20,402 bases of DNA from a candidate division KSB1 bacterium (GCA_022566355.1 JADFJB010000087.1:1-20402); one strand, 5' to 3'; positions 8 to 5,587 are shown, numbered from the stretch's first letter. The notes: generated by a model from the sequence alone, not told the origin. Translations and numbers: made by a program.

Positions 8-2620
8 TTAAATGAGATAATGGGGTTGTTTTGAGCTATCGATTTCTTGTGTAATCAGCGCCCGGAACGGCAGATAATGCAAAAGACTATGCGCTACAAT
101 AATCAAATGTTCTTTACCGCTGAGAGCGCCGGCCTCTACCACAGGCGCGATTAGTATTTCGTATAACCTGTGCAAAGGCATCATCCAAAACCGTTCATCT
201 AATTTCCCCTTGTTCATATTCCGGACGCCGGTTCCCCGGTATAGTGCAATTTTACCGCGTACACTTTGCTTCCCTTCTGGAACAGTAAAAACCTGTAGAT
301 TTTCTTGGGTCACGACGAAAATGATGGTACTTTCTTCCGTAATAAAGTATTCCAATAGTGCCGATTTATTTGTTAGCAATCGTTGTATTGTCGACACCGG
401 AAAGGGATCGATACTGACCAGGGAATTATATTCAGGGTGGCGTAATTTGATGTCGAGCAACAAACGCTGATAGTCCATTTGGGCTTTCTCTATTGAGTGG
501 CGATAACTACTTTCTGAACCACGTAATCCTTTATTGTCGTCCTCCTCTTCTACGATTTGGGAGCGTAGATTTTGTATTTTGATGCGAAGTTCTCGTTCCT
601 GGACTATCAAATTTTGAGTAGTGGGATCATGAGAATCTATCTTTGTATTTCCCAATCGGTCAAGCAAGGCGCGGGAGCGGGCTCGTTCTACATATTCAAA
701 GGCTTCTTCGACACGATTCATCCGAACAAGCAGGGTCACCATTGCCTCATAGGTCTCAAAACTGTTATGTATGATACCTGCTTTGAATTCCTCAACTTCA
801 GCTTGTGCGCGAATTTTTTCGACCGTAGTCACTGCTGCTTGAAATGAATAAAAGGCACGTTCATCATCACCGCGGTCTTGCCACAATTTTCCCCGACCCA
901 GATAGAGCTGCCAGCGCAACTCCGGATCTTCTAAACCCTCACTAATGGCCAATCCCTGTTCGTATGCCCTGGCTGCTTTTTTCCCACTATCAAGCTCACG
1001 GTAAAAATCTCCCTGTTGTAACTGTAACCAGCCTTGCAATCTTCGGTTACCGATACCTTGTGCAAGGTTCATGGCCAACTTCCAGGTATCAATAGCTTTT
1101 ACGGGTTCATCCTCCAAACTGTAAACATAGCCCAGGTTGCCTAGATCCATACACTCGTTATTTTTTTCACCAAGATCTTTATGAAATTTTAGAGCCTGTC
1201 CAAAGGCATCCTCAGCTTTTTCCAACTCGTTCATTTCCAGGTAGGTGCGACCTATAGTTGAGAGTGTGGATGCTTGTCCGCTAACGTTTTCAATACTTCT
1301 ATGCAGTTCAATTGCGTTACTAAAATTCTCCAAAGCCCTGGCGTGATCTCCTACAGCCATGTAGGTTTGACCCAACGCCTCGATCCAATAAGCCTCGCCG
1401 CGGACATGACCCATGTCACGATGAATTTCCAGCGCCCTTTGATAATTGCGGATTGCTTCCGGATATTCTCCGCGAAATTTATACAAATCCGCCAATCGTC
1501 CTAATTGGTATGCTTCTCCTTCCTGGTATCCCAATTCCTGGTGAATCGCCAAGGCTTGTTGGAAATGACTTAAGGCTTTATTGTAGTCACCCAAGCTCAA
1601 ATAGGCAAGTCCCAAATTGCCCAGGTCGTTCCCTTCGCCCTGGCGATCTCCCAATTCTCGCCTGATAGGCAGAGCCTCGCCATAAATTGCAATTGCGTCT
1701 CCATAATCCCCCAATTCAATTTGGATATTGGCAATGTTGGCCAGGTTCCTCGCGATACTGCGTTGGTTTTCTAACGTGCGATTCAATTCAAGGGCGTGCT
1801 GGTAGTTCGCCAGCGCCTTTTCATAGTTACCCATCTCTTGATGAATGAGGCCGGTATTGTTGTAATCTGCGGCCATGCCTCGTTTATCATCGAGTTCTTT
1901 TCGATAGGGTAGAGCCCTCTCAAAATAAGCACGGGCAGTAGGGTAGTCGCTCCAATCGCTATAGACATTGGCGATATTCCCCAGTCGATTGCCTGTACGC
2001 CATTTGTCGCCGATTTCTTCCAGGGCTGTTAGCGACTTTTGGTAGTTTTCGAGGGCCGCATCGAAATCCCCCAGGTAGAAATAGGCAGCGCCAATGCTGC
2101 CTGGAATTGCTGCCAAATCATCTAAATCATCGATATTTTGCGCTAGTTCCAATGCCTGTTCATAAAAGTTCCGAGCGAGATCATATTTCCCTTGCAGCAA
2201 GCTGTCCCTGGCCGTTTTCCTTAGCACCAAGATTTGAGCTTTAATTTTGGTAGATTCGGATGAAAATTTTTTGTAGCGATGCGCTTTTTCCAGGTAAAAG
2301 CGGTCGCCAAATTCTTGCGCATAAATATCTGCCAGGGCGTTGGCTGTCTCCCAATCATGGTTTCCTGCCGCGGTTGTGCCACGAGTTTTCTTTAGTATTG
2401 AGGAATCCAGCACAGATTCGATGGTTCGAATTGCATCCAATCTTTGGGTTTTGAGGAGGTCTCTTACCCTGGTTAAGTCATCATTTGTATAGGCTTGCAG
2501 GAGCTGGACTTTAAATTCTTGTCGGGAGAGGGGTTGAGCAATACCTGAGTTTGCTGTTGTGCACAAAAGCAATAAAGGCAAACTTAACAAAATTAATGTG
2601 GTGAAAAGATTTCGTTTCAT
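8..2620 (-). CDS. Exported TPR-CHAT protein, ending early inside the CHAT domain
   Basis: The protein has an N-terminal signal peptide (MKRN, then a Leu-rich stretch ending near GIAQP). About ten tetratricopeptide repeats with roughly 40-residue spacing follow (about residues 140-590), with classic TPR phrases such as GDYNKALSHFQQALAIHQEL. Next comes a helical linker with ERARSRALLDRL, then the start of a CHAT domain (clan CD, caspase/separase-like), recognisable from SALLEYF and HSLLHYLPFRAL. I start it at 2620, because longer versions read into a palindromic repeat, and GAGGA lies about 10 bases before this ATG. The frame ends HYLI-TAA at 8-10. The next codons read Asp-Tyr, and CHAT proteins commonly have LIEDYA here, so Glu appears to be replaced by a stop. 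The usual catalytic His and Cys of CHAT would lie beyond it. It is the last gene of a minus-strand cassette with a sigma factor and a zinc-finger membrane protein. TPR-CHAT identity is secure; activity is doubtful. Confidence 0.88.
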   Translation of the reverse strand: MKRNLFTTLILLSLPLLLLCTTANSGIAQPLSRQEFKVQLLQAYTNDDLTRVRDLLKTQRLDAIRTIESVLDSSILKKTRGTTAAGNHDWETANALADIYAQEFGDRFYLEKAHRYKKFSSESTKIKAQILVLRKTARDSLLQGKYDLARNFYEQALELAQNIDDLDDLAAIPGSIGAAYFYLGDFDAALENYQKSLTALEEIGDKWRTGNRLGNIANVYSDWSDYPTARAYFERALPYRKELDDKRGMAADYNNTGLIHQEMGNYEKALANYQHALELNRTLENQRSIARNLANIANIQIELGDYGDAIAIYGEALPIRRELGDRQGEGNDLGNLGLAYLSLGDYNKALSHFQQALAIHQELGYQEGEAYQLGRLADLYKFRGEYPEAIRNYQRALEIHRDMGHVRGEAYWIEALGQTYMAVGDHARALENFSNAIELHRSIENVSGQASTLSTIGRTYLEMNELEKAEDAFGQALKFHKDLGEKNNECMDLGNLGYVYSLEDEPVKAIDTWKLAMNLAQGIGNRRLQGWLQLQQGDFYRELDSGKKAARAYEQGLAISEGLEDPELRWQLYLGRGKLWQDRGDDERAFYSFQAAVTTVEKIRAQAEVEEFKAGIIHNSFETYEAMVTLLVRMNRVEEAFEYVERARSRALLDRLGNTKIDSHDPTTQNLIVQERELRIKIQNLRSQIVEEEDDNKGLRGSESSYRHSIEKAQMDYQRLLLDIKLRHPEYNSLVSIDPFPVSTIQRLLTNKSALLEYFITEESTIIFVVTQENLQVFTVPEGKQSVRGKIALYRGTGVRNMNKGKLDERFWMMPLHRLYEILIAPVVEAGALSGKEHLIIVAHSLLHYLPFRALITQEIDSSKQPHYLI

Positions 2621-2641
2621 TGTTAAGGAGTCCTCATTTAA

Positions 2642-2667
2642 TGTCATTCCCACCAAAGCGGGAATCT
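2642..2667. repeat. Short palindromic intergenic repeat (TGTCATTCCC type)
   Basis: TGTCATTCCC and GGGAATCT flank a short spacer. The arms ATTCCC (2646-2651) and GGGAAT (2660-2665) are perfect inverted copies. A related palindrome lies at 18469-18508. It sits just upstream of the TPR-CHAT start. Repeats of this general look are widespread in bacterial genomes; I cannot tell whether it has a function. Confidence 0.55.
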
Positions 2668-2701
2668 ATATATTGTATCTTCTGAAAAATAACAATCTAT
2701 C

Positions 2702-2802
2702 TGTCATTTCGAGGAGTTTACGATGAGAAATCTTATAATCCATTTCAAGTATGACTTGTTGGCAGACAAGATTTCTCCTCGCTTCGCTGTGTCAAAATGA
2801 CA
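2702..2802. repeat. About 100-bp inverted-repeat element, MITE/REP-like
   Basis: The ends are inverted copies (TGTCATTT at 2702 and AAAATGACA at 2794-2802). Inside them a second pair, GAGAAATCTT (2725-2734) and AAGATTTCTC (2768-2777), is a perfect 10-bp inverted repeat around a roughly 33-bp centre. No reading frame is evident. The structure suits a small non-autonomous palindromic element. It fills most of the gap between the anti-sigma-like gene and the TPR-CHAT gene, so it could also form a hairpin in a joint transcript. Confidence 0.6.
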
Positions 2803-2889
2803 CACTATTTATTTTTATCTATAAGGTCATCTTCCAAAAATTATTTTTATTTAATCTCAATTTTAAGATTTCCATCTAAGTTTAAATAT

Positions 2890-3744
2890 CTATTCAGCTT
2901 TGAAGGTAAAATATTCCATGTCGGAGAGAGTGGATCTGCCAAATTCATAGTTGCCTTCTACTTGCCAAAAGTAGGTCATAGCAGATTGAAGTTTTATTTC
3001 TTTTGGCAAAGTCACATCATTTTTCTTTGTCTTTATCTCCCAAATGATATCGCCATTTGAATCAAGCAGAAGGAAGTTGTAGGTGGAGATATTTTCTACT
3101 TTTGTCCAACTAAATTTTAGTTGTCGTCCTTCAACGTCACTTTGGTTTTCAGGGGCTTGCAACTGAATTTGGAGTTCCGCTGTAGATTCGCGTGTAATCA
3201 GCGGGGATTGAATTTTACTTTGTGGTTGATAAATGATAAAACCAATTATCAATACAGTTAGTGCAAAACCTGCCCAACGATAGACAGGTTTTGGTGAAAC
3301 CAATACATCCCAAAGAATTCTTACTTTTTCTCCAGCTGAACCTGTGATTGATGTAAAGGTTTGCTTGATTCGTTCTGGCAAACCAAGGTTAACTTCAATT
3401 AGACCTTCGGCTTTGAGTTCGTGTAATAAACTATCTAAGGAAACTAACCTATCAAGACAATATTCACATTCACCTAAATGGAGTTGAACCTCTTTTTTAG
3501 ATTTTGTACTGGTTGGGCTTTCTATGTAGGTCAGTATCTGGGAGTCATCGTAGCAGTCCTGTGTTTCTTGCTTTTGTTGAATTGAGATATTGCTTCGTAT
3601 GAATGTTCGAAGATTTTCATATGCCTTTACTTTTTTGCTGCATTTGGGACAAGATTGCAGGTGATTCTCAATTTTACCTTTTTTAATTTGATTTAAATTG
3701 CCACTTTTGTAAGCGATCAATTTCGATAAGTTCACACACTGCAT
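2890..3744 (-). CDS. Membrane protein with two anti-sigma-type zinc fingers and an Fn3-like exterior domain
   Basis: The N-terminal half carries two equal zinc-binding modules: Cys3, His28, Cys32, Cys35 and Cys64, His89, Cys93, Cys96, each with the HX3CX2C motif of zf-HC2/ZAS anti-sigma factors and the same 25-residue spacing to an upstream Cys. One membrane segment follows (about 157-173, AGFALTVLIIGFIIY). The C-terminal part (about 190-284) has the Trp/Tyr pattern of an Fn3-like beta sandwich (KFSWTKVE, YFWQVEG). The cytoplasmic fingers would hold the sigma factor while the outer domain senses or binds something. It starts at ATG 3744 with AGGAGT at 3752-3757. It lies downstream of a sigma factor and upstream of the TPR-CHAT gene, both on the same strand. 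The anti-sigma role is inferred from motif and position. Confidence 0.82.
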   Translation of the reverse strand: MQCVNLSKLIAYKSGNLNQIKKGKIENHLQSCPKCSKKVKAYENLRTFIRSNISIQQKQETQDCYDDSQILTYIESPTSTKSKKEVQLHLGECEYCLDRLVSLDSLLHELKAEGLIEVNLGLPERIKQTFTSITGSAGEKVRILWDVLVSPKPVYRWAGFALTVLIIGFIIYQPQSKIQSPLITRESTAELQIQLQAPENQSDVEGRQLKFSWTKVENISTYNFLLLDSNGDIIWEIKTKKNDVTLPKEIKLQSAMTYFWQVEGNYEFGRSTLSDMEYFTFKAE

Positions 3745-3840
3745 TAATTATGACTCCTTTCGTTTAATATGAAGAAACGGACATGACAAAACTTTTTTGC
3801 GGTTTTTTTTAACTATTCAGCCTCGAAGTCTCTAAGACAT

Positions 3841-3995
3841 CCCTTTCCCCTTTCCCTTATACCTTTTCCCTCATTCCTTTTACCTCATACCTTATACCTT
3901 ATACCTAACCCCTAACCTCATACCTAATACCTAATACCTTATACCTAACCCCTAACCTCATACCTCATACCTCATACCTCATACCTTTTCCCTTT
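3841..3995. repeat. Degenerate 6-7 bp tandem repeat array
   Basis: About 155 bases consist almost only of variants of CCTTATA, CCTAATA, CCTCATA and CCTAACC. A higher-order repeat is also visible: the 25 bases from 3901 recur from 3941. The array abuts the stop codon of the sigma gene (3996) and fills the gap to the anti-sigma-like gene, so it would be transcribed if the genes form an operon. It recalls the short tandemly repeated heptamers known from cyanobacteria, but any relation is only by appearance. There are no spacers, so it is not CRISPR. Confidence 0.85.
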
Positions 3996-4820
3996 TTACT
4001 TTTCAAGATCCGAGGGCCCAATACCTCTTTCTTTTAGCTTAACTTTCAAAGCCTTCAAGGCTTTTTTAAGTTTTCGATTTACCTGCCAAATGCTTTTCAT
4101 TTTCAGGATTCGTGCTGTTTGTTCAAGAGTCATCCCTTTTAACACATGTAGCCTAATGATCAATTTCTCTTGATGGGGAAGTGTGTTAAGTATTTCATTC
4201 AGTATCCCCTTAGTTTCTTGGTGAATCAGTTGTTGTTCAGCGTTAGGTTCATTCCGGTCTGAATGATCGAGTTCATCTACATCGTCAAATGACAAAAGGG
4301 GTAGAAACGCTTGTCTGTTCTCAAAAAGTCTGAATCGAGTTTCACTGTTTAAGGTATCATGAATTTTATCTAAACGAATCAACATCTCCCCATAGTGTCC
4401 CTCAAATCTGTGCTGTGTTTTAAGAAGTTGAAAAGTTAATTCGGTTGAATAACCTTTCTGATAAATAAATTGGAAAATAGTCTGCTCAATTGCCGGAAGT
4501 TTTTTTATGCATTCAAACAACCGGTTTCTGCCTTTATTTCGAAACCAATCAAAGCAACAATTTCGTGTAACAACGACAATCCAGGTTTCGAATTCATAAT
4601 TGCGAGGTTGCTCAAAATAGGCCATTATTTTTTTATACTTATCTTTTTTGAATTGTTCAAGAACATAAGTGTACAATTCCATTTGATCATCATGATCCCG
4701 AACTAACTTTGCAATGACAGCCATTATTTGACGGTTAGAATCTTGTACGAAGTTAGACCATGCTTTTTCCGGATCATTTCGAAAAGCTTGATTCCAATCA
4801 TGACCCCTTAAAGTCGTCAT
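3996..4820 (-). CDS. Sigma-70-family RNA polymerase sigma factor, ECF-like with an enlarged linker
   Basis: Region 2 lies at about 20-100, with FETWIVVVTRNCCFDWFRNK resembling the core-binding and -10 recognition helices. Region 4 lies at about 204-262 (LNTLPHQEKLIIRLHVLKGM, then TLEQTARIL and a basic helix), a helix-turn-helix for the -35 element. At 274 residues it is longer than the usual roughly 180-200 of ECF factors. The extra 100 residues include a stretch (LPAIEQTIFQFIYQKGYS, 108-125) that resembles a second, degenerate region 4. The ATG at 4820 is preceded by AAAGG, 8 bases away. It heads a minus-strand cassette with the zinc-finger membrane protein and the TPR-CHAT protein, and it probably drives that cassette or a surface-stress regulon. 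Confidence 0.87.
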   Translation of the reverse strand: MTTLRGHDWNQAFRNDPEKAWSNFVQDSNRQIMAVIAKLVRDHDDQMELYTYVLEQFKKDKYKKIMAYFEQPRNYEFETWIVVVTRNCCFDWFRNKGRNRLFECIKKLPAIEQTIFQFIYQKGYSTELTFQLLKTQHRFEGHYGEMLIRLDKIHDTLNSETRFRLFENRQAFLPLLSFDDVDELDHSDRNEPNAEQQLIHQETKGILNEILNTLPHQEKLIIRLHVLKGMTLEQTARILKMKSIWQVNRKLKKALKALKVKLKERGIGPSDLEK

Positions 4821-4822
4821 CG

Positions 4823-4867
4823 AGGTAACCTTTATTAAAGTTAATGGGTAGCTTACCCAGGTTACCT
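4823..4867 (-). promoter_or_regulatory. Nested inverted repeat over the sigma-gene leader and ribosome-binding site
   Basis: AGGTAACCT (4823-4831) and AGGTTACCT (4859-4867) are perfect 9-bp inverted copies. Inside them TGGGTA (4845-4850) and TACCCA (4854-4859) form a second perfect stem with a 3-base loop. In the transcript the outer 3' arm covers the AGG of the likely Shine-Dalgarno sequence, two bases before the ATG. It could be a translation-blocking hairpin or a dyad operator. The structure is seen; the role is inferred. Confidence 0.5.
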
Positions 4868-5038: not shown

Positions 5039-5587
5039 ATGCGTATTCGAATCAACAAAAGTGCAATTCACATCATGCAGGGGGATATCACGCATCAAAA
5101 TACCGATGCTATCGTGAATGCTGCTAATAATTCCTTAATGGGTGGCGGTGGTGTTGACGGTGCCATTCATCGGGCTGGCGGACCTGAAATATTGGAAGAA
5201 AACAAGAAAATAGTAAAAGAAAAAGGACCGTTACCTACGGGAGAGGCAGTCATTACTACTTCGGGTAAAATGCCATCAAAGTATGTGATTCATACTGTCG
5301 GACCCATCTATAAAGATGGCGCCTCAGGAGAAGCAGATTTGTTGACCAATGCATATCGAAATAGCCTTGCTTTAGCGGCAGAAAAACAGCTTGAATCAAT
5401 CAGTTTTCCTTCTATCAGTACTGGTGTTTTTGGATATCCAATTCCTGATGCAACTGATATTGCCATTGAAACTGTAATTCAATTTCTAAGAGAGAATGAT
5501 CAAATTAAATTGGTACGATTCGTTTTATTTGACGATCGCACTTTCTTGTCCTATCAGCAAGCATTAAACAAGATTGGGAAAGACTAA
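5039..5587 (+). CDS. Macro-domain protein, O-acetyl-ADP-ribose deacetylase type
   Basis: This is a complete single-domain macro protein of 182 residues, the usual length for the YmdB/TTHA0132-like group. It binds ADP-ribose and, in this group, hydrolyses O-acetyl-ADP-ribose or mono-ADP-ribosyl groups. Visible motifs are QGDIT (14-18), IVNAANNSLMGGGGVDGAIH (25-44) with the catalytic Asn and Gly-rich loop, and SISTGVFGYP (125-134), the phosphate-binding loop. The start is ATG 5039 with AAGGAT nine bases before it. It is transcribed away from the sigma cassette, with a 218-base gap between them. No partner ADP-ribosyltransferase is seen in the window, so it is most likely a housekeeping enzyme. 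Confidence 0.95.
   Translation: MRIRINKSAIHIMQGDITHQNTDAIVNAANNSLMGGGGVDGAIHRAGGPEILEENKKIVKEKGPLPTGEAVITTSGKMPSKYVIHTVGPIYKDGASGEADLLTNAYRNSLALAAEKQLESISFPSISTGVFGYPIPDATDIAIETVIQFLRENDQIKLVRFVLFDDRTFLSYQQALNKIGKD

Follow-up and report, generated by a model that had tools for sequence, protein, structure and literature searches.

The window, 20,402 nucleotides of DNA from a candidate division KSB1 bacterium, is one whole contig (G000:C87:1-20402) of a 4.62 Mb assembly that is 98.5% complete. Three adjacent minus-strand genes occupy its first 4.8 kb and encode a sigma factor (3996-4820), a putative anti-sigma factor (2890-3744) and a TPR-CHAT protein (8-2656). A preliminary description of the window had named these three genes, and open reading frames, profiles and domain matches confirm that all of them are present. 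The features of the locus are listed below.

3996-4820, minus strand: ECF-type sigma factor of 274 aa in which a long insert separates regions 2 and 4 (TIGR02937, Sigma70_r4_2)
3776-3800, minus strand: promoter-like element GCAAAA-N11-TGTCCGTT, 32 bp upstream of the start codon of the anti-sigma gene
2890-3744, minus strand: putative single-pass membrane anti-sigma factor, 284 aa (HxxxCxxC twice, zf-HC2, one transmembrane segment)
3409-3729, minus strand: pair of zinc-finger anti-sigma modules (residues 6-112), predicted to face the cytoplasm (AF2, alignment)
3229-3285, minus strand: transmembrane segment, residues about 154-172 (hydropathy)
2893-3171, minus strand: Fn3-like domain, residues 192-284, predicted extracytoplasmic (AF2, Foldseek, sequence profile)
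8-2656, minus strand: TPR-CHAT protein, predicted to be exported, C-terminus cut by the contig end (TPR_12, N-terminal hydrophobic segment)
2620, minus strand: probable start of the TPR-CHAT protein, an ATG (MKRNLFTTLILLSLPLLLLC...)
8-178, minus strand: beginning of the CHAT domain (about 50 of its 289 positions), without catalytic residues (PF12770)

A macro-domain gene (5039-5587) and the sigma gene are divergently oriented. Much of the sigma/anti-sigma gap consists of an imperfect tandem array with periods of 7 and 40 (3840-3987), and the anti-sigma/CHAT gap contains an inverted repeat (2721-2781). The matching anti-sigma/CHAT gap of L100 also has a palindromic repeat, of different sequence. 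An Rfam search gave no match.

The first gene product was recognized as a sigma factor by TIGR02937 (E 1.4e-19) and by Sigma70_r4_2 (E 4.4e-9); with the Pfam models, region 4 scored above the cut-off and region 2 below it. A profile built from nine relatives of this protein matched sigma chains in the PDB. The assembly encodes 27 sigma factors above cut-off, and the window's is among the three lowest-scoring; the other two adjoin CHAT genes as well. By profile, the clade of long sigma factors to which it belongs is found in KSB1, in Acidobacteriota and in records labelled Chloroflexi and Bacteroidetes.

The second gene encodes a zinc-finger membrane protein that probably holds the sigma factor back. 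Its HxxxCxxC motifs lie at residues 28 and 89, the zf-HC2 match scores 25.6 bits (cut-off 22.2), and the zinc-finger His and Cys residues are invariant across the seven full-length two-finger relatives that we aligned. The AF2 model has three helices in each module (H6-13, H19-31 and H33-51 in the first; H67-75, H81-92 and H94-112 in the second). The protein has one hydrophobic segment, near residue 154, and basic residues on the N-terminal side of this segment point to an N-in/C-out topology. AF2 also predicted a beta domain at residues 192-284 with pLDDT of about 90, for which the Foldseek matches were mostly Fn3 (best 3.9e-5). The anti-sigma profile matched the Fn3-like protein 3mpc (E 2.1e-4) and RsiW (E 0.0027), and weakly the RslA-type 3hug_B (E 0.034). 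Together, the zf-HC2, transmembrane, AF2 and Foldseek results bear out the earlier picture of a single-pass protein with two zf-HC2 fingers inside and an Fn3-like domain outside, the sidedness following from the predicted topology.

The third gene product contains tetratricopeptide repeats (TPR_12 E 3.4e-63) followed by a partial CHAT match (E 6.6e-5), which covers PF12770 positions 3-47 within the open reading frame and 3-54 in a six-frame search that continues across the stop codon. The same domain was matched in relatives at E 2.1e-57 (P0001) and 1.5e-60 (L101). The stop lies at 8-10, seven bases short of the contig end, and the frames of related CHAT genes continue through this position without a stop. 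It is either an error at the contig end or a real late truncation. We looked for the missing end elsewhere in the G000 assembly, where it was not recognized among the paralogues and the fragment that were found. Thus the repeats, the N-terminal hydrophobic signal and the CHAT homology of the preliminary description stand, but the CHAT domain in the window is incomplete. Another contig of this assembly bears a degenerate CHAT fragment. At L031 (11826-12032), such a fragment, with an internal stop, adjoins an intact TPR-CHAT gene, with no sigma gene nearby. An N-terminal hydrophobic segment was present in 67 of 79 CHAT proteins and in 1 of 57 sigma factors. The CHAT protein is very probably exported by this measure, which would place it in the same compartment as the Fn3 domain of the anti-sigma protein.

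CHAT genes were found in 73 of the 82 genomes of the phylum. We sampled them without regard to context, by domain match and length (about 800-1,300 aa), and the resulting 60 regions together with the window's own genome contributed 66 CHAT genes. Of these 66, 41 lie within 3.5 kb of both a sigma gene and a gene for a probable anti-sigma protein, as against about 3-4 expected by chance (about 4-6% per locus, based on 27 sigma genes in 4.62 Mb); anti-sigma proteins were called by their zinc-finger motif, and in about 16 of the 41 only by size and a single transmembrane segment near the sigma gene. The pair was not near the other 25 CHAT genes, some of which are at contig ends. Approached from the sigma clade, CHAT adjoins 16 of the 20 loci that have sufficient flanking sequence. 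The 16 are spread over KSB1, Acidobacteriota and one Chloroflexi-labelled record, and they include GC-rich loci whose sigma frame was taken from the genome search and not from the ORF caller. Sigma genes without CHAT are found at L152, L105 and L024, and L151 has a partial sigma gene. The third gene at L024 (8981-11119) starts like the CHAT proteins of L025 and L155 and has an octopine-dehydrogenase domain in place of CHAT at its end, through either gene exchange or an assembly join. In several cassettes the CHAT gene is on the opposite strand and still adjacent, so one shared transcript is not general.

We then compared sigma and CHAT tree distances across 40 cassettes and obtained a Spearman correlation of 0.395. 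When CHAT partners were swapped within the same genome, the mean fell to 0.12 and the observed value was reached in 12 of 2000 swaps; species kinship alone therefore does not explain the correlation. These results support the conclusion that sigma and CHAT co-diverge as cognate pairs. The same gene order thus recurs and co-occurs in many related genomes, by both the CHAT count and the sigma-clade count, and the three genes form a conserved unit, as had been proposed from the window.

The survey also turned up another cassette type (L097, 2349-4052 and 7035-7385; L076, 2880-4551 and 7515-7910). Here a protein of 410-440 aa with two N-terminal transmembrane segments and a protein of 120-130 aa are encoded between the anti-sigma and CHAT genes, and a small two-transmembrane protein follows CHAT. 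A Pfam scan of the two L097 proteins (2349-3674 and 3690-4052) gave no match. Many genomes of the phylum encode, in addition, a distinct CHAT protein, about 2,700-2,800 aa in length (for example G014:C44, G012:C112 and G077:C2).

The sigma/anti-sigma gap contains the element GCAAAA-N11-TGTCCGTT, which is identical in pattern and spacing in three KSB1 genomes (the window's, L100 and L101), with L100 and L101 proteins that are just 34-45% identical to those of the window. A scan of the G000 assembly allowing up to one mismatch returned the window's copy as the sole match; a relaxed form of the element has eight sites in that assembly and lies just before a gene only in the window. Of 12 lineages, 7 have TGTCC[GA]T between their sigma and anti-sigma genes, compared to a mean of 0.26 for random windows of equal length, and none of 5000 placements reached 7. 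At L144 the motif falls inside the last codons of the sigma gene. Shared promoter motifs had been suggested as a way to the regulon; one is present in the sigma/anti-sigma gap, and none was found before the sigma or CHAT genes. A Sigma-70 promoter scan performed at chance level. The TGTCCGT element is a candidate sigma-dependent promoter for the anti-sigma and CHAT genes, and its recurrence in the gaps of these lineages suggests autoregulation.

Csx29 was aligned to a profile built from six CHAT domains (E about 1e-6), which allowed the catalytic His (in ATH) and Cys (in SAC) to be mapped. The Cys is kept in 66 of 66 CHAT domains of the phylum sample and the His in 64, so the family as a whole retains its catalytic residues; both are also present in the Acidobacteriota members that we aligned. 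The two exceptions, L096 and L080, are the nearest relatives of the window's CHAT protein (51% and 42% identity). They read FATTAHF in place of FATHG, with His changed to Thr and the Cys kept. The CHAT protein of L107 has Tyr at the canonical His position, and the copy in the window stops short of both catalytic residues. AF2 models of the CHAT protein (four sequences) gave pLDDT under 50 for the CHAT domain, and active-site geometry is not readable from them. The presence of the TTAH form in two species from separate families speaks against random decay. In the window's lineage, the caspase-like part may have lost the ability to cut proteins. The protease step of the preliminary description accordingly fares differently at two levels: proteolytic release is plausible across the family, where the residues are conserved, and doubtful for the window's lineage because the canonical His is lost in its two nearest relatives.

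We favour, on balance, a reading in which the trio is a trans-envelope switch, with the exported TPR-CHAT protein acting on the outer domain of the anti-sigma protein. In its original protease version, the exported CHAT protein would cut this outer domain at site 1 and so release the sigma factor. The near-universal His and Cys of the phylum sample, their retention in Acidobacteriota, the alignment of the dyad with Csx29 and the predicted shared compartment of CHAT and Fn3 domains all speak for cleavage, but the canonical His is lost in L096, L080 and L107, the window's copy ends before it and no cleavage site was identified; we regard this version as unlikely for the system as described. The direction could also be reversed. 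The sigma/anti-sigma pair would then sense through Fn3 and induce an exported TPR-CHAT protein with a role outside the cell, in defence, surface remodelling or cell-cell contact. ECF sigma factors often have their targets next to their own genes, CHAT is also found without sigma, and the candidate promoter precedes the anti-sigma and CHAT genes, so that CHAT has the look of belonging to the regulon. The co-divergence of sigma and CHAT as pairs, and linkage kept on opposite strands, nevertheless fit a partnership somewhat better, and we consider the reversed arrangement a real, if rather improbable, alternative.

It is much less probable that the window's third gene is a decaying pseudogene beside an ordinary ECF/anti-sigma system. 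An in-frame stop inside the CHAT domain and the degenerate fragment on another contig would fit decay, but just 7 bases separate the stop from the contig end, and over the remaining 882 codons the frame is open, with 51% identity to L096. These readings overlap, and their weights were judged rather than calculated.

The trans-envelope switch would operate as follows. The zinc-finger part of the anti-sigma protein would bind the ECF-type sigma factor and keep it at the membrane. Outside, the TPR-CHAT protein would act on the Fn3 domain and alter how tightly the sigma factor is held; once freed, the sigma factor would use the TGTCCGT promoter to transcribe the genes for anti-sigma and CHAT, giving feedback. 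In the majority of CHAT relatives, the conserved His-Cys pair could carry out the outside step by cleavage, with intramembrane proteolysis to follow. The CHAT protein of the window's lineage, whose nearest relatives lack the canonical His, would more likely rely on binding, as a pseudo-protease sensor, or on a His at a shifted position. Of this scheme, the gene order, conservation, domains, co-divergence and element are observed, and export, topology, sigma/anti-sigma binding, promoter use and the direction and chemistry of the CHAT step are inferred. The switch draws on the 41 of 66 CHAT genes with a sigma/anti-sigma pair close by, the 16 of 20 clade loci, co-divergence, the hydrophobic N-termini, the RsiW and Fn3 matches, the shared element and Csx29 homology; counted against it are the missing canonical His in the two nearest relatives and L107, the 25 of 66 CHAT genes away from any such pair, the CHAT-less sigma loci and the opposite-strand CHAT genes. 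The fuller proposal, a family of such switches in which TPR-CHAT gates the zinc-finger anti-sigma and the window's branch is a binding-only pseudo-protease, is offered tentatively and may well not hold in all its parts.

The membrane anti-sigma factors of the RsiW/SigW and RseA/RpoE systems are released by regulated intramembrane proteolysis, with DegS or PrsW as site-1 protease. The window's protein resembles them in having a single membrane pass, a predicted cytoplasmic sigma-binding part and zinc-finger similarity to RsiW, but differs in its two zinc-finger modules, its Fn3-like outer domain and its pairing with a CHAT protein rather than DegS or PrsW. We also considered a defence system and rejected it: PADLOC returned generic TPR matches, with weak TPR-region matches to PDC-S39 and C3a156 in relatives, and no match for the sigma or anti-sigma protein.

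In type III-E CRISPR (Cas7-11/Csx29-Csx30-CASP-sigma), the protease Csx29 lifts the block imposed by a sigma inhibitor (PMC10028731). Both systems combine a TPR-CHAT protein, a sigma inhibitor and an ECF-like sigma factor, and their CHAT domains are homologous. Csx29, however, acts inside the cell on an RNA-guided complex, whereas the window's CHAT protein is predicted to be exported; the putative inhibitor here is a membrane zinc-finger protein, and the canonical His is lost in the nearest relatives. A search of the G000 assembly with PF03787 (Cas7-11/RAMP effector) gave no match, and four control genomes were positive; the cassette is therefore not type III-E, and the earlier statement that CRISPR parts are absent holds for the RAMP effector. 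ECF sigma genes beside EACC2-caspase proteins have been described (PMC8195603), and these share with the window a caspase-like domain, TPR and ECF sigma genes, but involve another caspase family and gene set, with no zinc-finger anti-sigma named. A close precedent is ECF54, whose gene context includes CHAT-domain proteins and no anti-sigma (review PMC8999054, section 3.3), together with subtilase and carboxypeptidase neighbours in an Actinobacteria example; proteolytic control was proposed there (PMC8999054). The link between ECF sigma factors and CHAT proteins is thus already on record, and the window's cassette differs from ECF54, as described, by its adjoining membrane anti-sigma, predicted CHAT export and promoter-like element. 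The literature searched contained no account of a cassette that joins sigma, zinc anti-sigma and CHAT genes; the main ECF classification paper, outside that search, may hold one.

Caspase-like control of a sigma factor outside CRISPR has so far been raised for ECF54, from gene context alone. The cassette provides many natural replicates in two phyla, an outer anti-sigma domain for CHAT to act on, a candidate promoter for use as a reporter, and a natural contrast between branches that keep the canonical catalytic His and branches that lack it. Its recurrence across two bacterial phyla suggests that the trio is probably a way of signalling across the cell envelope.
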